From positions 17,098,618 to 17,162,617 of the forward strand of contig JASKMD010000003.1 of the NCBI GenBank assembly GCA_030144725.1: a stretch of 64,000 nt of DNA, written 5' to 3'. Below, piece by piece: positions 12,908-63,368 of the stretch (position 1 is the first letter of the stretch; every line of letters starts with the position of its first letter). The notes beneath the pieces are model-generated. The model ran no database searches. It had not been told where the DNA came from and saw nothing but the letters and a program-made list of their open reading frames with translations. Position numbers and translations under genes: made by a program. This DNA is from Haematococcus lacustris. Lineage: Eukaryota > Chlorophyta > Chlorophyceae > Chlamydomonadales > Haematococcaceae.

Positions 12908-14023
12908 CTACGCATTGTTGCGGGCCCGGCCATCAATACCCCGCCGGTACTCTGCAGCCCGGTGCAGCCTCTGCCTGACCTTGGGCAGCCGGTCATTGAC
13001 CAGCTTGTAGCGCTGATGGTACTCCTTGCCAATGGGGGGCAGGGCCTCCAGGTCAGTCCAGCGGCACAGCTCCAGGGGGCGCTGCTTGCTCTCCCCAATG
13101 CGCTGGAAGTTCAGGCACGGGTTGGTGTCCCGGTCCAGCCACCTGCCCCATGGGGGGGCCTGGGGTCGTGGCACTGGGCCAGGTGGGGGAGGGGGCTGGG
13201 CTGCGGGAGGGGGCTGGGCCTGGGCAAGGAGGACTGGGGGAGGGGGAGGGTCCTGGGCAGGGGCAGGAGGAGGGTCCTGGGCAGGGGCAGGAGGAGGGTC
13301 CTGGGCAAGGGGGGCTGGGGGAGGGGGAGGGGGGTTGGGCGGCACCTCATGGCACCACTTCAGGCCCCGCACACACTTAGCATGCCGCAGGCTCCAGGCT
13401 GGGCGCAACAGCCGGTGGTTGACCTGGCCTGCTGGGGGTACCCAGTCCGCGGGCCTAGGCTGGTTGGCCGGCAGGTGCAGCTCACATGGCTGGCGGGCAT
13501 GCACAGAGGAGCTGACACGGCTGGTGCGGAACTCGTCCACGATCACAAGCCTGTCAGGCCTGGGATCTGTGCTGGGCCTGCTGGGCTGCTCCACCACCTT
13601 GCGAAACCCCGCCCGCACCGCCCCGGCCTTCCACCCACCCTGGCTGAAGTTGCCCGCTCCCAGGAACACCGCGACGCCCCTCTCTTGGTGGTAGTGCTGG
13701 CGTGACACCCACTTCATCCCATTCACCACCTGCAGGTCAGGGTCAGGTCAGGTACACAAAGTACCTCCACCACGTGCGCACAAAGTGAACACTGACGCTA
13801 ACCCCATCCGTCTCCACCCATCCGTCTCCACCCTCCACCCCTCATCCTCTTGCTGCCCACTGTCACTGGGACCTGCATTACATGGAGTCGCAATGCCGCG
13901 TGGTGCACACTGCGTCGCGTCGTTACAGGGGCCTAGCCTTTCGTTGAGCTTAGTAGCTTAGTGGCTTACCGGCTGCACCCTGTGCGGGGGTGACGGGCGC
14001 TTGCGTTTCCTTTTCGGCGGCAT
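12908..14023 (-). pseudogene. Fanzor (TnpB-like), type 1, lacking the RuvC-I exon
   Basis: Exon 14023-13970 encodes MPPKRKRKRPSPPHRVQP, a nuclear localisation signal, and ends at a GTAAGC donor. It joins in phase to 13729-12908, the C-terminal exon. That exon keeps RLVIVDEFRTSRVSS (RuvC-II Glu), CVRGLKWC (zinc-ribbon knuckle) and WLDRDTNPCLNF (RuvC-III Asp), and ends GIDGRARNNA. Relative to the copy at 45037-47419 the coiled-coil and RuvC-I exons are absent. The product would be a short protein that cannot form the full active site but could still bind the guide RNA; that is inference. The proline-rich linker differs in repeat number from the other copy. Confidence 0.75.
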
Positions 14024-21157: not shown

Positions 21158-21949
21158 GTGGGTGGCAACCTGGCGAAATCCGGGGTTGTGGATCTGCACC
21201 GCACCACCTGGGTCAGCTCCGCAGTGAATGGCCAGCAGCCCTGTGAGGAGGTGCTGGACCATGAGCAGCCCACCAGGCCTACAGACTGGAAGCCTCCAGC
21301 AGGGCAAATGGACCTCCGCCCGCTGCGCCCAGCCTGGAGCCAGCCGCATGACCAGCCAGTGCGGGGCCTGATGTGGTGCCCGGTAGTGGCCCCGCGCAAG
21401 CCCCCACAGGCCCCATGCAGCAGCCAGGCAGCTACACAGCCAGTATCTTTAGAGCCAGGGCCCAACACTCCCTCGCCAGCCAAGCGCAGCAAGCGCAGCA
21501 AGCGCAGCAAGCGCAGCAAGCGCAGCAAGCGCAGCAAGCGCAGCAAGCGCAGCAAGCGCAGCAAGCGCAGCAAGCGCAGCAAGCGCAGCAAGCGCAGCAA
21601 GCGCAGCAAGCGCAGCAAGCGCAGCAAGCGCAGCAAGCGCAGCAAGCGCAGCAAGCGCAGCAAGCGCAGCAAGCGCAGCAAGCGCAGCAAGCGCAGCAAG
21701 CGCAGCAAGCGCAGCAAGCGCAGCAAGCGCAGCAAGCGCAGCAAGCGCAGCAAGCGCAGCAAGCGCAGCAAGCGCAGCAAGCGCAGCAAGCGCAAGGCGC
21801 AGGGCAAGGCTGCCAAAGCCAATCCAGCACCACAGCCAGCCCAAGTGCTACCAGCCAAGGGCAAAGACTACCCTGACCTGGGCTACAATCGGGTGCGAGA
21901 CAAGCCACCCAAGGCCCAGCAGCAGCAGCAGCCTGCTGTGGCACAGTAG
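21158..21949 (+). pseudogene. Fanzor (TnpB-like), type 2, 5'-truncated with expanded KRS repeat
   Basis: Frame begins after the RuvC-II glutamate region (HRTTWVSSAVNGQQPCEE) and continues through PPAGQMDLRPLRPAW and the zinc-knuckle segment VRGLMWC. The linker after SPAKRS has become a nine-base AAGCGCAGC array encoding Lys-Arg-Ser. The RuvC-III motif, present in the sister copy at 27985-29250 as WLDRDCNAALN, is deleted between PQPA and LPAKGKDYPDLGY. The catalytic Asp is therefore lost and the copy cannot cleave. It ends PKAQQQQQPAVAQ, as do the other type-2 copies. Confidence 0.75.
21481..21792 (+). repeat. AAGCGCAGC nonamer array, about 35 units
   Basis: Near-perfect tandem copies of a nine-base unit with essentially no divergence, implying recent expansion. 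Open in all six frames, which explains the Lys-Arg-Ser, Ala-Gln-Gln, Leu-Leu-Arg, Cys-Cys-Ala and Leu-Ala-Ala repeat frames here; only Lys-Arg-Ser is in the Fanzor frame. Confidence 0.95.
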
Positions 21950-27984: not shown

Positions 27985-29250
27985 TTACTGTGCCACAGCA
28001 GGCTGCTGCTGCTGCTGCTCCTGGTCCTTGGATGGCTTGTCTCGCAGCCGCTTGTAGCCCAGGCCGGGGTACTCCTTGCCCTTGGCTGGTAGAGCTGCCT
28101 GGTCTGGCCAGTAGCACAGCTCCAGTGGGCGCCACCTGCTCACCCCATTGCGCTGCATGTTGAGCGCTGCATTGCAGTCCCTGTCCAGCCACCTGCGTGG
28201 CTGTGGTGCTTGCTTGGCTTTGGCAGCCTTGCCCTGGGCCTTGCCTTTGCCCTCAGTGGGCTGGGTGGGCTCAGCTGCCTGCTCAGCCTTGATGCGCTTG
28301 CTGCGCTTGGCTGGCGAGGGAGTGCTGGGCCCTGGCTCTGAGGCTGATAGCTGTGTAGCTGCCTGGCTGCTGCATGGGGCATGTGGGGGCTTGCGTGGGG
28401 CCACTACCGGGCACCACATCAGGCCCCGCACTGGCTGGTCATGCGGCTGGCTCCATGCTGGGCGCAGCAGGCGCAGGTCCACCTGTCTTGCTGGGGGCTT
28501 CCAGCCTGCACGCCTGTTTAGCTGTTACCGGCGGGGTATTGATGGCCGGGCCCGCAACAATGCGTAGGCCCTAGTAGCTTGCACAGGCTGTTAGCCTTTC
28601 AAGCATTAAGCTGTTGATTTTGATGAGGTGCCCAGTGGTCATGGGGGGTGGCCCCCAGAACGTGCCATCGAGGTGGGGTTTGCAGTCATCAAGGGTGCGA
28701 CCGAGGATGCTACAACATGTTTGTAGTAGCTGAGTGAGATTACCCACAGGCCGACATGTTGTTCCTTGTTGAATGAGTTTTGTTTGCCTGTTTAGCTGCT
28801 CCTCCTCACATGGCTGCTTGCCATACACTGCTGAGCTGACCCGGGTGGTGCGGTGCTCATCCACAAGCACCACCCTGCCCCGCCGTTGGCCTGCGCCCTT
28901 GGGCCTGCACACCACCTTGCAGCAAGCAAGCAGCACCGCATCAGCACCCCACCCACCCAACCCCAGTGCCAATGCCAGCTGTGCCAAAGAAGACCACCAG
29001 CTGCTTGGCATGCCCGTGGCGCTCTATGGACACCTCCGCCATGTCCTTCTCCAACTGCAGCCATGCACCAAGGCACACACCACCTCCCAGTCCCTTACCC
29101 TCCCTCCCACCCACCCACCCTCACCTCCTTGAAGAGCTGCTCCAGCGCCCGGTCCTGGGCTCCGTACAGCCTTAGCCGCTGCCGTGCCCACTTGGGGTCC
29201 AGGTACACCTCCCACACCGCATCCAGGTGGCCAGGGTGACAGTGATGTGC
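27985..29250 (-). pseudogene. Fanzor (TnpB-like), type 2, frameshifted and split by an insertion
   Basis: Minus strand. The exon at about 29250-29131 (WEVYLDPKWARQRLRLYGAQ then ALEQLFKE) corresponds to type-1 WEEYLKPRWRRQRLAL. The next exon runs LEKDMAEVSIERHGHAKQLV, a frameshift near 28950, then GRVVLVDEHRTTRVSSAV (RuvC-II Glu) to 28799. There a 261-bp type-1 tail has inserted in the opposite direction. The frame resumes at 28524 with WKPPARQVDLRLLRPAW, VRGLMWC, an unexpanded SPAKRSKRIKAEQ linker and WLDRDCNAALNMQR (RuvC-III Asp), and ends QQQQPAVAQ. The RuvC-I region is missing upstream. It shows the ancestral form of the linker expanded at 21481-21792. Confidence 0.75.
28525..28785 (+). 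mobile_element. 261-bp 5'-truncated type-1 Fanzor tail with 13-bp target duplication
   Basis: GCCTGTTTAGCTG occurs at 28512-28524 and 28786-28798, directly flanking the insert. The insert starts in the last 13 codons of the type-1 Fanzor gene (YRRGIDGRARNNA) and runs through the complete conserved tail to GTTTTGTTT. Removing it and one duplication restores the type-2 Fanzor reading frame (EEEQLNRRAGWKP). A fixed 3' end, variable 5' end and long duplication are hallmarks of target-primed reverse transcription. Confidence 0.85.
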
Positions 29251-39000: not shown

Positions 39001-41626
39001 CCCTGGAAGCTATGGTCCACTGTCCACTATACAGCTGTAGGCCCTTGATGCTCAACGCGGCTGTGTAGGTCACGGTCCATACCTACTACGAAGTGACCCA
39101 CCTCCTGTCATCGTGACCCACATGACCCGAGTTGTGTGGGTCCAAACCAGATACCAGCTCAGGGTCATGGCACTCTACCAACACCACCACTGGCAACACT
39201 GGCATAGCGACCAGCCACTGCTGCCAATCAATCCCCTGACACCGCAGCCGCAGCGTCGCAGCTGGAACAGCCAGTGACAGCCGCAATACAGCTCGACGAG
39301 CAGCTGGCTCTTGGAAGGGCCACCAGCCAGCTGTCAGGCATTGTGTTTTCTGCCTTCTCTGCCGAAGCATCAAGCAAGATGCTGCAAGATGCGGAGGAGC
39401 GCAGCATGATAGCCTTAGAAAACAACGCAGCAGACAGCTGCAAGGCAAGACCGCAGTGGGAGCTTGCCAAGCGCTACAAGAACAAAAAGCAAGGTGGCAG
39501 AAGGTGGCAAGAAGCAGCGAGGTCGTAAGGCTGGTCAAGTGCAAGGCAGCCATTTAGGATGCGCCAGGCAGCAGCTCACAAGGCAGCGGCCCTCCCGCTG
39601 GCGACGTCTGCTGCGACTGCTACTGAGATTGTCCACCGTCATGGTGGAGGGTCCCCCTTTGGCCGAGGCGTAGCAGGGGCATGCCAGGGATGCTCGCTTC
39701 ACATATGGCAGCCTGGTGGCAGTGCTGGCTTAGGCTGACAAGCTGTGGTTTTGTACGCCAGCCTGGTGGCAGCGCTGGCTTGGCGCTGATGGGTGGGCTC
39801 ACTGAGGCTGGAAAAGTTACCCCTGCATGTATGTACCCCTGCACGTACCCCATGTACCCTTCCCTTACCCCATGTGCCCCATGTAACCCTACCCTTGCAT
39901 GTACCCCTGCATGGAACCCTGCATGCATCCACTGCATCTCCAGATGCAACTCTGCTAACATAATGCCAGCGCAACTCTGGCAACAAAAAGCAACCCTAGC
40001 GTCCGCCCACACGGTACCATAACAGCCTTCATGAGCATGTCCTATTTATGAGCATTTCCTTTACAGCCTGCCATTCCACCATAACCACAACCCCGTACAA
40101 CCTGCTCATTTGCCTAGACTCCAGCGGCGGATGTAAGCAAGCAAGGGCTGGAGGGCACTGGGACCAACACTGCATACACCCCTGGACAGCCTGGCAAGCG
40201 GTGCAGGGAGTAGGCCAGCACACACCCCTGGCTGCACGCACGCACGCCTGGCCCGCCCGCCCACCCTCACCTCTGTCAGCTGGCCAGCGTGCCAAGAGTC
40301 CAGGCTGCCTGGCAGGTGCTCCGCCAGGAAGACTGCCAGGAAGGGCGTCACCAGGTCGTTCATGCCTTGCACATACCCACTGGCAGGATGCCTGCAGCAG
40401 GCAGTCGCATGTGCATGCATGCATGGTCAGCATGCATCGGGGTATGATTATGGCAGTGGCAATGACAAGAAAACTACACTCGTCAAGTGTGACCCTGCCT
40501 TGCTGCAGGGCTGATCTGCCATCACCCTGACTTCACCCCTCCCTTCCCCAGCCTGTACCCCTGAATCTCCCTCCCTCCCTCCCTCCCTCCCTCTGCCCCT
40601 CACCTTCAGCTCCTAGCCCGACTCCCACTCTGCGCCGGCCCCGCCACCACCCCTCAGCCCTGCTGCAGTGTGCCGCACCCTCCCTTCCCCTACCCATCAC
40701 TCTGCCGACCCCTCCCTTCCCCTACCCATCACTCTGCCGACCCCTCCCTTCCCCTACCCATCACTCTGCCGACCCCTCCTCAGCCCCGCTCCAGTGAGGC
40801 AGGCCCTCCCTTCCCTTCCCTTCCCTACCCTGTACTCCCGCCCTGCCTCACTCTGGCCCTCCTCAGCCCTGCTGCAGTATGCCATGCCAAGGCCTAAGCC
40901 CCGCAACCGGCCTTGCCTCCCCATGCCCCTCCCCTCCCACCTTCCGTCTCCCACCCCGCATCCTCACCTTCCTCTCCTTAACCCCTCTCCTTCCTCTCCT
41001 TAACCCCTCTCCCTCCCTCCCCCTCCCCTCTCCTCCCCCCTGCATTTCATCCGCGTGCTCATCCCACCTGATGCCCCAGATGTACAGCAGCCGCTCCAAG
41101 CTCTTCTGGATCTGTGGCTCCTGGAAGAAGGGCACTGCGGGGGCTGTGCGCGGCACATCCACCATGACCTGCAGAACAGACGAACGAAGGAGAGACACAG
41201 CCTTGGTGCACAGGGAGGGTGGCAGGCCCTCAGGTGGGAGGGATGAGCACCCAGGCTCATGCCTGCTGGCTACCACCTCTCTGCCCTCCCTCCCTCCCCG
41301 GCCGTCCACCTCAGCCACCCTGGTCGCCCACCCTGACCCTCCTCTGCATGCAGACCATGGCTGCTCAGCCCTGGTTGCATGGGAACATCACTAAGTGCAT
41401 GGTCACTAATCGCCATGCTGCATGGGCACCCTCCCCCTGCACCCAGAGCCCCTGGCACAACCCTGACCACTTTCTCTCATTCAACCAGCGCCCTGAGTGC
41501 CCTGACCTGTCTTAATGCTGCCTGCTCGTCCTCGGAGCGCTCAGCAGCTGGGATGTCATAGTACTGGGGAAGCATGTCTGTGTACTCAGTGCGCTTGCGG
41601 GTGAGCGTGGCGGTCTGGCGGACCCT

Positions 41627-41662
<36 letters not shown>

Positions 41663-41679
41663 GTCACGGTAGCAGCAAC

Positions 41680-41733
<54 letters not shown>

Positions 41734-41775
41734 GGTGGCAGCAGCAGCAACAGCAGCGGTTACGGTAGCAGCAAC

Positions 41776-41838
<63 letters not shown>

Positions 41839-43982
41839 CCTGCCATTGTAGCGGTGGAACACAGGACGCCGGGGGACAGGACTCTGGTCGACCACGTTGA
41901 CTAGGGCAGGCGGGTGGGGGGGCAGTCAGTTATGCCATGCAGCTGACGCAGCTCAAGCAATCGAGGCCCAGCATGAAGGTGGGGTAGGGTGCTGTCGGCT
42001 GCCCCTCAGGCCTTGATGCCAGTCACCCACCGTGCGGGTGGGCAGTAGCCCAGCAGCAGGCGCCAGCACTGGGGCCGCAGGGGGTGGGGGATGCCCATCC
42101 AGGACAGCTCCCTCAGCGCCTCCACATCCACCTGCAGCCAGCAGTCAGGCCCTGGCTTTGACCCCTTTGGGCCAGCAGCCAGGCACTGTTGCTTGACCCA
42201 GCCAGGAGCCAGGCTCTGGCACTGCCACGCCCCCCCTGCAGCCAGGCCCTACACCAGCCAGGCCGAGGCAATCCTGGTGCGACACACTGGCAGCGGCTGC
42301 TGTGCCCCCCTCTCTCCTAAACCGGCCCGGCTGAGGTCTCCCTGGTCCAACAGGGTGTGCTGTGCCCCCCTCCCTCACCCAACCCCCCCAAATCCTTGCT
42401 GCACCTCCAGAGCTGCACCTGCACCTGCAGCCATCTCCCCCGGGCGGCAGGCAGTGGTGGGGTCAGACCTTCACCCTGCAGCCTGCCTCTTGGCTACTCC
42501 CCTGTTCATGGCCCTAGAGGCGCATGCACCTGCCCTGTCACTCCTGCCATTGCAAAGCCAAGCAACCATACCAAGCTGATGGCTTTTACCAGGTCATGAA
42601 GGCGTGTAACGGATCATAATGGTGTAAACCCACCATCATCATCTAGCCTGCAATTGCTGCTGCAGTCACTCCCCTTGCTGCCTGAGCAGGTCAGGCAGGG
42701 AGACACGAGGCTGGCCCAACCCTGCAGCCAGGCCTGACACCTGATCAGCTGTGGGTACATACCTGGTGGTGTGGAGCCATGCGAAGCTGGCCTCAGTTGG
42801 CGGCTGGTCTTGAGAACCCCTGGTCCCACCCAATCTCAGCCTAGGCCCCCTCCCCACCTGCTGTGCTCCTCACCCTAACATCTCCAACCCCTTGTCCAAC
42901 CACCTCGCCAACTCCCAACCACCTGTGCCCCCAGCCTTGCCCCTCCCCACCCTGACCTTTGTTCCCCACGCTGGCCCCAGGCCCCCACACTTACCACAGG
43001 GGCTTCCAGCAGCTTGTGGAACTTGTCCAGGCGGTGCTGTGGCACGCAGACAGGCGCAGGAACAAATGGCCGGGCTGGCCGGCTGCGGGCTGCAGGCTCC
43101 CCCCCTGTGGCAGCTGCTTGGAAGCTGCCCCCTGTGGCAGCTGCTGGGAAGCTGCCACCTCCCGAGCTGCTGCTGGGGCCGGCCACCTCCTCAGAGCTGT
43201 CGGGCGCGCTGCCTTTAGCTCCGACTTGGCTCTGACCGTGGGCTCCCGTGCCACTGCTGCCATTGCCTATTTTGTTCAACACCTCCTTCAGCTGCGTGGT
43301 AGCTTCCTTGACCAGGGCTGAGGCAAAGCCGCTGCTGCTGCTGCTGCTGCCAGGAGCAGGGGCTTTGCTGCTGTCCATGTCCCTGGGCCCTTGGCTGCCA
43401 CCCTCGCCTTGCACGCATGCACTGAGACCAGCCACAGTACCTGGAGAAGCTGCCTTGCCGTCCCAGCTTGCGCTCACGCATGCCTGCATTCCCACAAGCA
43501 TGCAAGCCAACAGCCTCAGCAGCCCTACATGCATCTTGTCATCACCTACAGGCAGGCTGTTGGGAGCTCGTGTGGAGTTTGTTGGAGTTTGTGTGGAGTT
43601 TGGGTGGAGCTGGGGTGGAGCTGTTGTGATGTGCTGGGGTGGGGTATTGTGGGCAGGTCCTGTGAGCCTATTGTGCTGTGTGTACTAAGAGGCTGTTGGG
43701 AGCGCCTCAGCACATAGAGGAGGCCAGTGAGGCGCTGCTTGTGCTAACAGGCGAGTGGCTGCAGGGCCTGGCTGCAGGCTGAGGCTGTTGCGCCGTGTAT
43801 TAAGAGGCTGTTGGGGGCTTGTGGAGGATGTGGTGTGGTGTGGTGTGGTTTGGTGTAGCTCAGGGCTTCAGCTCACTCCTTGGCCAAATCGCTCCATGCG
43901 CCCTGTTCCAGTATCTGTGCTGCTGTCATCCTTCATGTTGTGCATGATCTTGCTGTGTAGCTGCTTGCCCGCCTTCAGCAAG
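35829..43982 (-). CDS. TBC-domain Rab GTPase-activating protein (TBC1D22-like), at least 11 exons
   Basis: TBC proteins stimulate GTP hydrolysis by Rab GTPases with paired Arg and Gln fingers. Minus-strand exons: 43982-43877 (probable N-terminal), one ending 42995 (start uncertain; a Met lies at 43378), 42131-42031, 41624-41507, 41168-41068, 40391-40271, 38630-38500, 38167-38044, 37174-37130, 36692-36615, 35978-35829. From the HRLDKFHKLLEAP exon onward all joins are in phase. Motifs: ELSWMGIPHPLRPQCWRLLL, MVDVPRTAP (Arg finger), HPASGYVQGMNDLVTPF (Gln finger), EADCYWCLCKLVEGIQDHY, AQPGIQRTVF, FIQFAWRWVNCLLVRELPF, WDTYLSEG and LPTADWEEKELAGVLSQAHV. Order and spacing match TBC1D22A/B throughout. 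Both finger residues are present. Several introns hold large repeats; one holds unrelated coding-like sequence (39160-39680). Confidence 0.9.
36360..36450. repeat. GTGTCAGCTGTGTCAGCG tandem repeat, last TBC intron
   Basis: Five to six imperfect units alternating GTGTCAGCTG and GTGTCAGCGG; intronic on the minus-strand gene. A CAG run (35994-36020) also sits just upstream, in transcript sense, of the exon-10 acceptor. Confidence 0.8.
38285..38362. repeat. GGTCAG hexamer array, about 13 units, TBC intron
   Basis: Perfect hexamers with one interruption (GGTCGAAATCAGG). Confidence 0.95.
39160..39680 (+). other. Coding-like fragment antisense within a TBC intron
   Basis: A plus-strand frame reads FSAFSAEASSKMLQDAEERS, ENNAADSCKARPQWELAKRY and KNKKQGGRRWQEAARS, with charged, helical composition unlike random GC-rich sequence. 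It lies inside an intron of the minus-strand TBC gene and has no start or splice context, so a transposable-element remnant is likely. Family not recognised. Confidence 0.3.
40665..40790. repeat. 33-bp tandem repeat, about 3.5 units, TBC intron
   Basis: Units of CTTCCCCTACCCATCACTCT plus GCCGACCCCTCCC repeat with minimal change. Confidence 0.9.
41628..41838. repeat. CAG/CTG trinucleotide tract abutting a TBC 3' splice site
   Basis: About 210 bp of CAG triplets on the plus strand (CTG in the transcript) with a few ACG/GTA interruptions. The transcript runs CTG repeats straight into the acceptor CTGCAG at 41625, followed by the exon encoding VRQTATLTRKRTEYTDMLPQ. The frame that makes poly-Ala here is not used; splicing from 42031 to 41624 is in phase without it. 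Confidence 0.9.
43690..43935 (-). repeat. Second copy of the repeat at 33173-33430
   Basis: Same order of conserved words. Bases 43877-43935 fall within the predicted first TBC exon (TDTGTGRMERFGQG), which suggests this is the source locus and the copy at 33 kb the duplicate. Confidence 0.6.
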
Positions 43983-44519
43983 CTGCAAAGCACAAGGGTG
44001 GAGTCAGCACCAGATGTGGTGGCTGAGCTCTCTAAATGTGAGCCAGGTTGCGAGAAGTCAACCTGGTCAGATTGGATTTAATATTTGGCTTGTCTTCCAT
44101 GCTGGAGTTGCGAGCGAGTATGCCTTGGTGACGGATGCGTCATTGAGCGTGGCCATTACAAAGCCAGCGCAGAGGCAAGAAACTGGTGCATGAGCTCGCC
44201 ATTGCTCGCAAGTTCTTGGGCATAGGTGCGCTGTCAGAGTGTTACAGCATTACGAGGAGGAGGCAGCTTGATTCTGAATGGTAGTTGGAATTAGGAAAAG
44301 GAAAAGGCCAGTGTTCGCTCGTACCGTGGCAAGCAACGCGTAATGGCAAGGTTCTGGTCTTAGATAAAACCTAACAGCAGCTGCCTGATGCTAGGCAGCT
44401 CTAAATCTAAGTCAGCTCATGATCCTACGCCTGGCCAGCACACTCTTCAAGCGGGGTGTACAAGCTCATTGCAGGCGAATCGAGCAGCTAAGAAGGCCTT
44501 GTAACATGACCGGCAATGT
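43983..44519. other. Upstream of the TBC gene; no further exon identified
   Basis: The TBC start codon and promoter should lie here or to the right if the exon at 43982 is internal (it begins in phase 1). No convincing first exon seen. The right end abuts the ACGT target duplication of the Fanzor-bearing transposon. Confidence 0.35.
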
Positions 44520-45036
44520 ACGTGGTCACCCCCGCCATTGGCTGCACCCCCATGGCTCAAGAGATAACTTTCTTACTCATTTCTGCACGGATGCGGCCGC
44601 CGATTGGTGCCATTAGCTGGTTATGGCCTGACTAGAGTGCAGCCAGCCCCAGCGGTTTGCCGGATGGCTGGCCCCAACCCGCGACGGACAATTCAAAACT
44701 TTAGGTCAGCACGCGACAGTGCTGTTGCGTCCCTGCACGCATCGATACCATCTCCCAAGCTGGGTGCGTGACTGGACATTGCATCGTGACTGGACATTGC
44801 AAGTTTTCAGGTCGGCACGCAACAGTGTTGCTACGTCACAGCACGCATTGAGACCCTTTCTCAAGCTAGGGGCGTGACTGCGACGGCGGATTGCTGGCAG
44901 GTGCAAGCCGTCGAACTACAGGTTGCACAAGATGCTCAAGGCATTGATGCCTGTGGCTCCCGAGCAACCACGAGCAGCAAGAATTAGTCAAAAACATGAA
45001 GGGACTGAGCTGATAACTATGTTTGCCGTTGTGCAG

Positions 45037-47419
45037 GCTAGTGAAGGCCATGATTGACAAGAAAAGGGGAGTGAAGGCTAACTGTGCCAATGTGCAGAAA
45101 GCGAGGGAGGTGACGGCACAGCGGAGGGCTGCAGAGGCTGCTGGTCCCATTGAGATTGCTGCTGAGGCTGAGGCCCAGGCTGATGCTGGTGCTGATGAGG
45201 CTGATGCGCAGTTACACCAGCTACAGGCAGACCTGCAGCCCAGGGAGCTACAGCTTGCTCACAACCAGCGCATGCAGCAACTACAGTAACAACTCCACGA
45301 CCTCCAGCGGAGCGAGCGTCAGCGCAAGGAGCAGCAACTTGCTGATTTGGTGGCGCAGCAGCGGGCAGCTCTGCTGCAATGTGAGCATCAGTTAACTGAG
45401 CGGCAGCACCAGCTGCAGCAGCAGCAGGTGGACCTCAGCCGGAGGGAGCAGGATCTGACAGAGCGGCAGCACCAGCTGCAGCAGCAGCAGGCAGACCTTA
45501 ATTCCAGGGAGCAGCAAGCTCGCATCCAGACGTTGGCACAGCAGCTTCACAGCTTACAGCAAGAGCTCAGGTGGCTGAAGTGCAACGCGAGGTGCAGCAG
45601 TGCAACGCACCTCATGCAGCAGCAGCAGACAGACCTGCTACTAAACAAACAGCAGGTGGAGAAGCAGCATTTGGCTTATTTGCAGGCTATCAGCAACAAT
45701 CACCCCCTCCCAGACTATGGTGGGGGTGCGGGCCAGGCACTTTGTCATCGATGACAGGGTGTTGCGTGGCCTGCTGGCTGACCTGGGCCAGGACACCCTG
45801 ACACGGGCCAGGTTTGAGGCTGACAGCCTGCCCCACTGGCAGCGGTTTATCCAGTACAGCCAGCTGCAGAACAGCGGGTGGGAATTTGCCCGTAGGGTGG
45901 AGACGGATGGGGTTAGCGTGAGTGTTCACTTTGTGCGCAGCCAGGCAGTCCATGAGCCAGTAGAGCTGCCCTTCATAGGGCGTGAGCTCACAGCCACGAG
46001 TGACTACAGCCCAGCCACCCACATAGCCGTCGGGGTGGACCCCGGTGTCACCCAGGCCATCAAGGCTGCACATGCAATGCGGGACCCAGCCACAGGTCAG
46101 GTGCTCAGGCAGTGGGAGTGGGAGCTGACCAAGGGGCAGCTTAAGCATGACAGCGGGCTTACCAAAGCCAAGCAGGACACAGCCCGTTGGTCAGCTGCCA
46201 TCCAGCCACAGCTGCAGCAGCTGGCAGCTGCCACCCCAGCTGGCACCACCCTGGATGGCCTCCATGCCCACATCCTGGCCCTCAAGGCCACCTGGGACCC
46301 GCTGTGGGAGGAGTACCTCAAGCCACGCTGGCGCAGGCAGCGGTTGGCGTTGCACCATGCCCAGGAGCGCGTCATTGAGGGCTTCTGCAAGAAGGTATGA
46401 CCTGACCTGACCTGACCTGACCTGACCTGGTACCTGACCTGACCCTGACCCTGACCGGACCTGACCTGACCTGGTACCTGACCTGACCTGACCTGACCCT
46501 GACCATGACCTGACCTGGTACCTGACCTGGTACCTGACCTGGTACCTGACCTGACCCTGACCTGCAGGTGGTGAATGGGATGAAGTGGGTGTCACGCCAG
46601 CACTACCACCAAGAGAGGGGAGTGGCGGTGTACCTAGGAGCGGGCAACTTCAGCCAGGGTGGGTGGAAGGCGGGGGCGGTGCGGGCGGGGTTTCGCAAGG
46701 TGGTGGAGCAGCCCAGCAGGCCTAGCACGGATCCCAGGCCTGACAGGCTTGTGATCGTGGACGAGTTCCGCACCAGCCGTGTCAGCTCCTCTGTGCATGC
46801 CCGCCAGCCATGTGAGCTGCACCTGCCGGCCAACCAGCCTAGGCCCGCGGACTGGGTACCCCCAGCAGGCCAGGTCAACCACCGGCTGTTGCGCCCAGCC
46901 TGGAGCCTGCGGCATGCTAAGTGTGTGCGGGGCCTGAAGTGGTGCCATGAGGTGCCGCCCAACCCCCCTCCCCCTCCCCCAGCCCCCCTTGCCCAGGACC
47001 CCCCTGCCCCTGCCCAGCCCCCTCCCCTTGGCCAGGACCCTCCTCCTGCCCCTGCCCAGGACCCTCCCCCTGCCCCAGCCCAGGCCCAGCCCCCTCCCCC
47101 AGCCCAGGCCCAACCCCCTCCCGCAGCCCAGCCCCCTCCCCCAGCCCAGGCCCAACAGCGACCCCAGGCCCCCCCATGGGGCAGGTGGCTGGACCGGGAC
47201 ACCAACCCGTGCCTGAACTTCCAGCGCATTGGGGAGAGCAAGCAGCGCCCCCTGGAGCTGTGCAGCTGGAAGGAACTGGAGGCCCTGCCCCCCATTGGCA
47301 AGGAGTACCATCAGCGCTACAAGCCGGTCAATGACCGGCTGCCCAAGGTCAGGCAGAGGCTGCACCGGGCTGCAGAGTACCGGCGGGGTATTGATGGCCG
47401 GGCCCGCAACAATGCGTAG
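45037..47419 (+). CDS. Fanzor (eukaryotic TnpB-like RNA-guided nuclease), type 1, best copy
   Basis: Fanzors are eukaryotic TnpB relatives; characterised members are RNA-guided DNA endonucleases. A 5' exon starting at 45037 after GTGCAG encodes a long Gln-rich coiled coil (about 45130-45680; repeated LTERQHQLQQQQ) with one in-frame TAA at 45287. A middle exon, from about 45684 to 46394, encodes VRARHFVIDDRVLRGLLADL and THIAVGVDPGVTQAI (RuvC-I Asp), ending EGFCKK. A GACCT-repeat intron (46395-46567) follows. The last exon, 46568-47419, has VVNGMKWVSRQHYHQERG, RLVIVDEFRTSRVSS (RuvC-II Glu), CVRGLKWC, a proline-rich linker and WLDRDTNPCLNF (RuvC-III Asp). All three acidic residues remain. The first zinc knuckle is degenerate (VSS where TnpB has TCS). 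No NLS exon like that at 14023 was found upstream. The TAA means this copy may be inactive unless the coiled-coil exon is skipped. Confidence 0.85.
46395..46567 (+). repeat. CCTGA pentamer tract forming a Fanzor intron
   Basis: GTATGACCTGACCTGACC ... CTGACCTGCAG: nearly the entire intron is CCTGA/CCTGGTA repeats. The copy at 12695-14198 has a shorter version at the same place. Confidence 0.9.
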
Positions 47420-47639
47420 GCCCTAGTAGTTTGCACAGGCTGTTAGCCTTTCAAGCATCAAGCTGTTGATTTTGATGAGGTGCCCAGTGGTCATGGGGGT
47501 TGGCCCCCAGAACGTGCCACCGGAGTGGGGTTGGTAGTCATCAAGGGTGCGACCGAGGATGCTACATCGTGTTTGTAGTAGCTGAGTGAGATTACCCACA
47601 GGCCGACATGTTGTTCCTTGTTGAATGAGTTTTGTTTGC
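47420..47639 (+). ncRNA. Candidate Fanzor guide-RNA scaffold (type-1 tail)
   Basis: Begins right after the Fanzor stop. Near-identical to the tails at 12907-12695 and 28570-28785 over about 215 bases although non-coding. Features: GGGGGTTGGCCCCC hairpin, TCAAGGGTGCGACCGAGGAT, GTAGCTGAGTGAGATTACCC and a fixed 3' end GAATGAGTTTTGTTTGC. In TnpB/Fanzor systems the scaffold lies at the gene's 3' end and the guide is the adjoining flank; here that flank would start CTGAGCCTCAATGG. Role inferred, not shown. Confidence 0.55.
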
Positions 47640-48257
47640 CTGAGCCTCAATGGTCAGCTAAAGGTCGTCTCACTGCGGGTGCAGAGGTGTGGTGGAGCCA
47701 CCAAGTGTTTAAAGGTGCACGAAGAGTCAATCTGCAGAATCAAAAACGGCTTACACTGATCGGCAGCGTACTAATGGCCGAAATTGTGACTGGGTGCATG
47801 GTGCATTAGAGTCAACTTCACAGCAGCACAGACGGCCCACAAAGCAGGGCATCGCGCATTTGTCAAAGGGACACGTTGGGACTCCTCACAAAGAATCAAT
47901 CAAGCTTGTCAGCCCAGCATCTGACGTCCTGGTTGGACATTTAAGTGGACTGCAAAAAGGCCCACATTTAGGAGAACATGACATGGGGTCACGTGACACA
48001 AAATAAACTGAACGCGTCCATGCCGCGGAGCCACCGAGCGCGATAGCTGTTTCCTGATCACAGCCCCACTTTCCCGGCACAACGCCACCCTATCTTCTAA
48101 CACCCCCGCCCGCCCCGGCACAGGTGCGTATCAGCCCGAGCAGCCCAATATCCTCGCGCTGGTGAGCTGCACGGCCCTGCGCAACAATCGCTGAAAAACT
48201 CTCAAAGATCAGTCAGACAGTTATCAGGGGTGCAGCCAATGGCGGGGGTGACCACGT

Positions 48258-48632
48258 ACACGGGATGTAACATGAAACGTAACATGACGATGTAAATGTA
48301 ACGTTACACGACTACTAAGCACTGAACCATCTAGCCTAGACATTATGTAGCCTGACGCTAGGTTTGTGCATGCACCAGCGCAGGCCGTATGCTGCCACGT
48401 CCACGTCAATATGTTCTGTTTGTTGCTGGTCACCCCCGCCATTGGCCCCGCAAATGTGAGACGGTCTGGGGCGCGAATCTCCGTGTAGCTCGTGACAAAG
48501 TTTTGACGCAGCCGGGTGTAACAGCTCCGCCCGCCATTTCCGCGGACTGTGAACATGGTCGCTCGCTGCAGCCTGGGGCTCATCAAGGTGCGACCGTACG
48601 TGGGTCGCAGGTCGAAGCGCAAGATTCCTTGG
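48258..48632. mobile_element. Remnant of another GGTCACC-family element, end at 48428
   Basis: GGTCACCCCCGCCATTGGCC at 48428 faces right. After it comes the basic exon MVARCSLGLIKVRPYVGRRS (48554-48630), homologous to the protein exon in the element at 6446-8596. That sequence continues after the inserted element at 50214 (GGGTTGGGTCGGGAC). The right end was not found, so the element is decayed. The part 48258-48427 is the flank of the Fanzor-bearing element. Confidence 0.6.
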
Positions 48633-50213
48633 GGTCACCCCCGCCATTGGCTGCACCCCTGATAACTATCCGACTGATCTTTAAGAGTTTTACAGCGATT
48701 TTTGCGCAGGGCGGTGCAGCTCATCAAAGCGAAGCTAGCGGCTGCTCGGGCTGATGTGCACCTGTGCCGGGGCGGGCGGGGGTGTTGAGAAAGTTGGTCG
48801 CGTTGTGCCGGGATTGGCCTGCTTAATGGGGCTGTGATCAGCAAACAGCTATCGCGCTCAGCGGCCCTGACCTATTTAACTTTGAATTTTTAAGCGGACC
48901 TGACATGTGTTCTAGTGCTAGTGCTAGTGCTGATGACATGTTTGAGGGAGTCTGTATGGCGTGTGGCCTGTCCCTGCACCCGAACAGCGTGCAAGTCGTG
49001 TCGGGTCAAATTCCTTTTCTTGCACTCTTCTCAACCGATTTCCTGGCCAATAGGGCGCGGCTCCCCCCGTCAGGCTAGACAAGCAAGCCAAAAAAGGCCC
49101 ATTTTTTAGGGGCCCCCGCCTAATATTAGGTATTAGATTATATTAGATCTAATCCGGCCGGTATTAGATCTAATATGCGTATTAGATGACGATGTTGGAT
49201 CCTGGGCGCTGTGAGTGCAGCCGTGCGACCCTAGCGCACTGGTCGCAATTGCAAGCGCGTCACATTGTCACTTCCAGCCGGCAGGCAGGCCGGCAGCTGC
49301 ATTGGCAGCCAAGCGGCGATGGCCGCAATCAGATAACAGAAGTACAATGGCAAGAATACTGACACGTCTGTGGTGATGTTGAAAGTCCAGGCTCGCAAGT
49401 TCACCGCAACTTGGGACTTTGAGTTCGTGGAGGGCATCGCCAAAGCATTCTGCAAGCGATGCCCGCGTGCATAGAACAATGAGGGCGCCAGCGTAAAAAT
49501 TTTGACTCAAACTGAGAGGAAGCATCCGCTGCGATGCACACTACATACGGCACATTGATGAGGACAACTATAACTACTTTAACAACTTTATGAAGACTGT
49601 CACAGCGGACATCAGCGTACGCCGCGATCTCTGGGACCTCACAGCCTGATAGTAACAATACGACAGCTGCGGCAGTGGCTGCGGCCTGACCTACGAAAAT
49701 AATCACTGCCACCCACCCATCTGCCACCCATCCATCGCCCAGCATGGCCTTCAGATGCACGTGCAATGTCAACAACCGTTGTTTAGGGGTTGAGCAAGCC
49801 TCAACTTACTGAGATCCCCGCGATTTGAACCCCGGTGGGGACCTGCTCTTGCCGTCTAATATTAGGTGCGTATTAGACCCGTATTATATTAGGTCGTCTA
49901 ATATAGATCTAATATAGATTGACGCACCCTACTGGCCAACCAGGACGTCAAATGATGAACTGCCAGTTCTGTGCGGCTCCTTGTGAGTGCTCGTAACGTG
50001 TTACTAGAACAGAAACGCGTTGTCTTGATGTGTGGGCCGTTTCATGTGTGGGCGGTTACACATATTTCTGCTCAATCTCTGCATCTTTTTGACTAATTCT
50101 AGCTGCTTTTGGCTGTTAAGGAACCAGTGGCACCAACTATTAGAACACTTTGAAGTTGCTGTCACATGTGGACTGAACCTGCGCTGAAGAATGCGATATT
50201 AACGGGGGTGACC
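48633..50213 (+). mobile_element. GGTCACC-family element nested in an older one (1581 bp)
   Basis: Starts GGTCACCCCCGCCATTGGCT and ends CGGGGGTGACC; only the outer 11 bases are inverted at the right end. The uninterrupted target is seen at 8343-8362 (inverted). Comparison shows four extra bases (TTGG left, AAGG right), consistent with a diverged 4-bp duplication. The interior matches the element at 10217 except for an insert at about 49115-49935. No protein recognised; short frames at 48915 and 49377 (MLKVQARKFTATWDFEFVEG) are noted only. Confidence 0.7.
49115..49935. mobile_element. Nested insert bordered by TATTAG/AGATCTAATA palindromic words
   Basis: Absent from the sister copy at 10600. 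The left edge carries CCTAATATTAGG, TATTAGATCTAAT, CCGGCCGG and TATTAGATCTAATA; the right edge carries CTAATATTAGG, CTAATATAGATCTAATATAG and ends GACGCACCCTACTGG. A plus frame at 49377-49475 encodes TWDFEFVEGIAKAFCKR, possibly a remnant protein. Edges are approximate and no duplication was established. Confidence 0.45.
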
Positions 50214-63039: not shown

Positions 63040-63368
63040 TCAGAGCCAGGGCCCAGCACTCCCTCGCCAGCCAAGCGCACCAAGGTTGAGCAGGCAGCTG
63101 AGCCCACACAGCCCATCGAGGGCAAAAGCAAGGCCCAGGGCAAGGCTGCTTAAGTCAAGCCAGCACCACAGCCAGGCAAGTGGGTTGATCTGGACTGCAA
63201 TGCAGCGCTGAACAAGCAACGCTTTGGGGAGAGTAGGTGGCGCCCATTGGGAACTGGTGGTCAGACCTGCCAGCCAAGGGCAAGGAGTACCCTGGCCTGG
63301 GCTACAAGCGGGTGCGGGACAAGCCACCCAAGGCCCAGCAACAGCAGCAGCCTGCTGTGGCACAGTAG
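63040..63368 (+). pseudogene. Fanzor (TnpB-like), type 2, degenerate C-terminal fragment
   Basis: Reads EPGPSTPSPAKRTKVEQAAE, a stop in AQGKAA, then WVDLDCNAALNKQRFGESRW, where the RuvC-III WLDRD has become WVDLD. A frame change follows, before YPGLGYKRVRDKPPKAQQ and the usual PAVAQ end. Both N-terminal catalytic parts are missing. Clearly dead. Confidence 0.75.

Follow-up and report, generated by a model that had tools for sequence, protein, structure and literature searches.

A probable 5′-truncated copy of an abundant Fanzor1-like transposon family without a zinc ribbon in Haematococcus lacustris

Fanzors correspond in eukaryotes to TnpB and Cas12, and what a Fanzor does for the element that carries it is an open question in the field. 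Here, we ask whether a locus of the green alga Haematococcus lacustris encodes a working nuclease of this type. The locus lies in a 64,000-nucleotide stretch of DNA (the window; contig JASKMD010000003.1, positions 17,098,618 to 17,162,617 of the forward strand), in which an earlier note had predicted, at positions 45037..47419, a Fanzor gene with a Gln-rich coiled coil followed by a complete RuvC triad, proposed as a candidate programmable nuclease. Our analysis gives another answer, in which we have high confidence: the locus is a recent 5′-truncated copy of an abundant H. lacustris transposon, expected to be inactive and belonging to a Fanzor1-like family that lacks the zinc ribbon. The copy itself is probably dead; the family as a whole is of interest.

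The nuclease open reading frame is carried on the + strand by two exons, exon a (45717..46394), which is open from the ATG at 45717 to an AAG, and exon b (46568..47419), which is open to the stop codon TAG. The two open frames, 45645-46400 and 46550-47419, join in frame across a 173-bp intron (46395..46567, +; GTATGA...CTGCAG) that consists of a TGACC minisatellite and has an in-frame stop right after the donor. This intron, as had been proposed, is borne out by a flank-pattern search of other copies, where all 17 donors located are GT and all 28 acceptors AG, with intron lengths of 73 to 701 bp across the 15 copies in which both borders were found; in one copy the minisatellite (46398-46564 in the window) has reached about 700 bp with its splice sites kept. 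The three motifs on which the prediction was built, THIAVGVDPGV, RLVIVDEFRTS, and WLDRDTNPC, are all present in the joined frames. The RuvC-I Asp of GVDPG (46038..46040, +) is residue 108 of the 509-residue open reading frame, the alternative-position Glu (Ealt) of VDEFRTS (46763..46765, +) is residue 292, in a structural register near E541 of SpuFz1, the Fanzor1 of Spizellomyces punctatus, and the RuvC-III Asp of DRDTN (47198..47200, +) is residue 437. The two sites at which a zinc ribbon would have its CxxC pairs read S-S-S-V (46784..46795, +) and C-H-E-V (46943..46954, +), so that three of the four ribbon cysteines are lost. A Pro-rich repeat insert whose length varies among family members (46955..47176, +) lies between the ribbon site and RuvC-III, where it had been described. 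None of this is a chance resemblance, given at least 129 scored matches in the genome and 426 matching proteins at E ≤ 1e-3; in exon a, identity to the relatives fetched reaches 98.7%, and a protein database search finds a deposited protein, "hypothetical protein QJQ45_026814," that matches the searched region at 100%.

The limits of the element differ from those first assigned to the gene, in that the family-A copy runs from 45715 to 47638 (+), beginning where matches to other copies begin and ending at the family terminus TTTTGTTTG. The same terminus closes an insertion bounded by a 12-bp duplication at 28513-28798 in the window. In the 865-residue relative P0003, the conserved sequence MVGVRARH begins at residue 379, and the locus therefore lacks 378 N-terminal residues; its product is at most a 509-residue fragment, with 107 residues ahead of the RuvC-I Asp compared with 485 in P0003. 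This 5′ truncation, which removes the 378 N-terminal residues present in full-length P0003, makes activity of the copy unlikely, and with three ribbon cysteines also gone the locus holds little promise as a working programmable nuclease. Full-length members at other sites in the genome are better candidates.

That the locus belongs to a transposon family follows from matches in the 307.9-Mb H. lacustris assembly (the window lies on contig C175). A protein query gave at least 129 scored matches, a lower bound reached with 84 of the 131,508 first-look candidates scored, and a query with the 3′ end gave 40 scored matches among 2161 first-look candidates, 98 to 100% identical to the query, with the unscored candidates left out of the copy count. 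Of 83 pattern matches to relatives in viral contigs, none was confirmed. Longer copies measure 3.2 to 3.9 kb between duplications, and their deposited models, of about 860 residues, are Fanzor1-like, with the RuvC triad intact and the C4 zinc ribbon missing. The aligned 3′ ends finish at sequence of the type TTTTGTT(T/G), followed within a few bases by CTG, the exceptions being copies L003 and L014, which end earlier. For 33 3′ ends found by pattern, after removal of six duplicate loci, the 3′ flank was compared with each copy's own upstream DNA. A direct repeat of 12 bp or more is present in 15 of the 33 (8 of 1056 wrong-locus pairings) and, at 11 bp, in 17 of the 33 (20 of 1056 wrong-locus pairings); the remaining 16 copies show no repeat of at least 11 bp, and for some of these the DNA covered may stop short of the 5′ end. 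The target duplications are 11 to 17 bp long and lie near CTG. An intact 3′ end, 5′ truncation, and duplications of variable length, the features of a one-ended element, are thus seen in the family, the locus' own duplication aside.

How such copies are made can be framed by analogy with CRe-1, CRe-2, and CRe-3 of Chlamydomonas reinhardtii, which PMC3627910 regards as non-autonomous Helitron2-type elements. As described there, these are likewise multi-exon green-algal Fanzor1 genes whose copies are 5′-truncated and internally deleted with intact 3′ ends, flanked by duplications of mostly 7 to 19 bp; the CRe elements insert after T-rich tetranucleotides, whereas the H. lacustris copies begin near CTG. 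On this model, copying would proceed at the DNA level, begin at the 3′ end, and often halt early, with a transposase supplied in trans, and would yield the 5′-truncated copies with their 11- to 17-bp duplications. By comparison with SpuFz1, the full-length protein may bind an RNA transcribed from the 3′ terminal part of the element, with flanking DNA providing the guide, and its RuvC domain may cleave DNA as SpuFz1 does, with the empty donor site as a possible target; RNA-guided activity of the family would be expected on the same grounds.

The alternative that survives best concerns the copying step only, which might be reverse transcription in trans by the machinery of a long interspersed nuclear element. 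The 5′ truncation, common 3′ end, and 11- to 17-bp duplications seen in the family are typical of target-primed reverse transcription. On the other side, the copies share no poly(A) or simple tail, and no spliced junction follows any of the 17 donor sites, a result that favors copying of DNA over copying of spliced RNA. We regard reverse transcription as rather unlikely and retain copying at the DNA level as the working model.

The loss of the zinc ribbon is a property of the family and extends beyond the locus. We fetched 330 proteins in three overlapping searches (the best 120 of each of 426, 550, and 171 matches), and all of these listed relatives are from H. lacustris. The motif DE[FHY]RT[ST] occurs in 246 of the 330; a CxxC pair follows it in none of the 246, and at the second zinc-ribbon site CxxC is absent from all 330. 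One apparent member with an intact ribbon, P0292, was rejected since it matched a loose cysteine pattern with cysteines that lie within a fused, unrelated Cys-rich part. Sorted by motif, with no tree, the family falls into four groups, A (RDTNPCLN, including the locus), B and C (RDCNAALN), and D (RGLMSSTS or RGLMCSTS, then DRDVSAALN). The sequence RVSS is common to the groups, which suggests that loss of the first Cys pair preceded their divergence; the sequence at the second site differs among them. Group D (P0100 and P0214-P0330) has Ser where the second zinc site would have Cys (RGLMSSTS), and several deposited models fuse pieces of this group to host genes.

Selection appears to have acted on this zinc-less form. 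The median pairwise ratio of nonsynonymous to synonymous divergence (dN/dS) in family A, from pairs that are non-independent and insertions of varying age, is 0.26 for exon a (14 copies), 0.15 for the part of exon b that precedes the Pro-rich insert (30 copies), and 0.32 for the C-terminal part (34 copies). As dead copies drift toward a ratio of 1, the source copies were probably under purifying selection without the ribbon. We hold it to be an even proposition that H. lacustris harbors at least four diverged Fanzor1 lineages, all strongly amplified, that descend from an ancestor in which the C4 ribbon was lost and nuclease activity kept; they would form a natural clade of RNA-guided DNA nucleases able to work in the ribbon's absence, on elements inserting near CTG with duplications of 11 to 17 bp. 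The family might instead have been without nuclease function since the ribbon was lost and persist as an RNA-guided binder, as the missing cysteines at the locus and the absence of CxxC at either site in the fetched proteins would allow; this is decidedly unlikely, since all three acidic residues are conserved and the segment that holds Ealt has the lowest dN/dS. If a zinc-ribbon-less clade with a nuclease kept under selection is real, the ribbon would be dispensable, and the clade would supply algal nucleases to test. The high copy number, the insertions bounded by duplications, and the near-identical 3′ ends further allow the role of a Fanzor for its own element to be asked here.

Is the core that of a Fanzor at all? 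The fingerprint given in PMC10711439 is DPG in RuvC-I and a Glu six residues before the zinc finger; the definition of Fanzor and TnpB proteins in PMC3627910 is D-X(125-275)-[TS][TS]-X-X-[C4 zinc finger]-X(5-50)-RD. At the locus, GVDPG occupies 46032-46046, six residues separate Ealt from the first zinc-ribbon position (E-FRTSRV-S), 186 residues lie between the RuvC-I Asp and the Thr of RTS, and the RD motif is present 80 residues past the ribbon site, a distance due to the Pro-rich insert and shorter in group D. In an alignment of 96 of the 330 fetched proteins, chosen for a usable core so that its counts lean toward intact members, the RuvC-I Asp, counted over rows that have a residue there, is found in 85 of 86, the Pro of DPG in 84 of 86, the Ealt Glu in 94 of 96, and the RuvC-III Asp in 88 of 88. 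Among the first 120 fetched proteins, taken without selection, DPG with its flanks is present in 94, DE.RT[TS] in 101, and RD[CT]N in 92, many of the others being fragments. Predicted models of the relatives P0003 and P0007, of low confidence and with low template modeling (TM) scores, have Fanzor chains as their best fold matches in the PDB; the best match of the low-confidence model of a 430-residue relative is the Spizellomyces Fanzor, and the 50 matches listed for a core model are Fanzor, TnpB, TranC, and Cas12-type enzymes, with the TnpBs of ISDra2 and ISFba1 among them. By its sequence, the nuclease core of the locus is a predicted Fanzor1-like RuvC domain with the Asp, Glu, and Asp triad.

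Comparison with characterized proteins refines this assignment. SpuFz1 (PDB 8GKH, 9CEU, 9CEY, and 9CEZ) resembles the H. lacustris family in the fold and order of the RuvC core, and at the ends of the model alignment the H. lacustris Glu falls at E541 or 540 and the first Asp 2 to 4 residues from D383 (SpuFz1 numbering from PMC10432273 and PMC11423790). The proteins differ in that SpuFz1 has a CCCC zinc finger where the H. lacustris family has none, and the locus copy also lacks the N-terminal part; identity is 12 to 14% over the aligned part. TnpB of the IS200/IS605 and IS607 elements has the same RuvC fold, with typically D-hydrophobic-G and a canonical Glu that precedes the zinc finger by about 50 residues (PMC10711439), unlike the H. 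lacustris family.

A number of results weigh against a Fanzor1-like transposon copy at this locus. The C4 zinc ribbon of the original Fanzor definition is absent; this finger is strictly conserved according to PMC3627910 and carried by "many" Fanzors according to PMC10711439. A Pfam scan of the locus copy found no match, and a sequence-profile search of the PDB returned chance matches and no Fanzor. PF07282 (OrfB_Zn_ribbon, or Cas12f1-like TNB) matches 9 of 26 relatives with a best E value of 0.0029, and 3 of 8 others with a best E value of 0.00058 at 20.4 bits, below the curated cut-off of 26.3. The mean predicted local distance difference test (pLDDT) values of two models are 52.6 and 58.0, with the RuvC-III part below 50 in both. 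Over the whole chain, TM-scores to SpuFz1 are 0.13 to 0.18 at a root mean square deviation (rmsd) near 28 Å, reaching 0.22 to 0.31 for the model of the 430-residue relative, and the full-length model, whose N-terminal part, where the WED and REC domains of a Fanzor1 would be expected, is of low confidence, has a VIA rmsd of 7.8 to 8.1 Å. Finally, a target duplication of the copy at 45715..47638 was looked for and none was found, and the 5′ break may therefore stem from a later rearrangement. In the remaining profile searches, PF07282 has no match at E ≤ 0.001 in the whole genome, NCBIfam profiles on the 26 relatives gave low-complexity and chance matches (TIGR01765, transposase N-terminal, E 0.022 in one member), and PF07282 is precomputed for 5 of 120 relatives listed, of which those read have no CxxC pair.

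The Fanzor call thus stands in its DPG, Ealt, and RD motifs and in the fold matches of low-confidence models of relatives, and fails in its zinc ribbon; profile support is absent at the locus and takes the form of weak matches below cut-off in relatives. Chance similarity to Fanzor of an RNase H-fold transposase that belongs to a different superfamily would account for the missing ribbon, the lack of any scanned profile at its curated cut-off for the locus copy, the PDB profile search, and the low TM-scores. It is nevertheless very improbable, as DPG, the Ealt spacing, and the RD motif are all correctly placed, the top fold matches are Fanzor chains within a list of Fanzor, TnpB, TranC, and Cas12-type enzymes, and PF07282 is precomputed on five relatives.

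The Gln-rich coiled coil had been taken as an N-terminal part of the protein; we reject this. Its frames (45037..45714, +) lie outside the element. The first (45017-45289) closes with a TAA at 45287-45289, and the next (45290-45754) is in a different frame from the nuclease. DNA matches at 13 loci besides the window's own two start at 45715 or 45717 and those at the remaining loci start further in; among the loci fetched from the genome search, none besides the window's own matches upstream of 45715, and matches stop near 47640. At these loci, many of which cover little upstream DNA, matches to the coil are CAG-type low-complexity sequence only. The deposited 730-residue model P0001, which links the coil to the nuclease, is faulty in that its first exon, at 44516, lies inside a dispersed inverted repeat and that it omits about 30 bp containing the TAA and about 94 bp ahead of the nuclease. 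Longer relatives have another N-terminus, both as proteins and in the genomic copies L031-L033. As read from these features, the supposed Gln-rich N-terminus is unrelated sequence lying ahead of a 5′-truncated copy. The least probable reading of all, a whole and possibly active chimeric Fanzor gene with a Gln-rich coiled coil, has P0001 in its favor and is contradicted by the TAA and frame change within the coil, the model's gap over that stop and its first exon in a repeat, the low-complexity nature of the coil matches at loci often covered only a little upstream, and the different N-terminus of longer copies. CAG-type repeats at 2249-2310 of locus L033 and at 41625-41839 of the window resemble the coil in composition only.

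Among green algae, where Fanzors are sporadic according to PMC12636532, another parallel by description only is a Fanzor of Auxenochlorella, encoded by the most abundant repeat of its genome and termed uncharacterized in that source. In the literature found, no Haematococcus Fanzor is described, the Auxenochlorella paper, seen in part, being the only work that names both Haematococcus and Fanzor. No title in the literature found on the Fanzor zinc finger and TnpB points to a zinc-less Fanzor, a search of partial coverage that is no proof of novelty.

The untranslated 3′ end of the element (47420..47638, +) was aligned in 37 copies and is a speculative omega-RNA region. A consensus fold of these copies shows little covariation. 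Across 26 copies its divergence is 0.105, about equal overall to the 0.117 at fourfold sites; a block some 30 columns long, chosen once the alignment had been viewed, diverges by 0.035 versus 0.117 at fourfold sites and might belong to a guide RNA or to a transposition signal.

An inverted repeat at 44517-44550 and 48227-48260 was considered as the terminal repeats of the Fanzor element. We rejected this, since the ends proper to the family fall within the inverted repeat, which also makes up a foldback at 48030-48865. This foldback repeat (44517-44550, 48030-48865) ends in GGTCACCCCCGCCATTGGCTGCACCCC and is what P0001 translates as its first exon; a sequence resembling it breaks into the 3′ end of Fanzor copy L014.

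The window holds further Fanzor copies. A subfamily-B copy (28069..29223, −) is broken by a nested family-A fragment of 262 bp, itself 5′-truncated (28525..28786, +), with the 12-bp duplication CCTGTTTAGCTG on both sides. This fragment is 96% identical to the locus copy over 261 bp and opposite in orientation to its subfamily-B host, in which a single open frame runs across the site once the insert and the second repeat are removed. The coding part of a second family-A copy lies at 12911..13732 (−), in a copy with the 13-bp duplication CTGGCAGGCACAC. Additional copies or fragments are found at 63046-63249 (+) and 21185-21406 (+), in the latter of which a Leu is aligned with the catalytic Glu.
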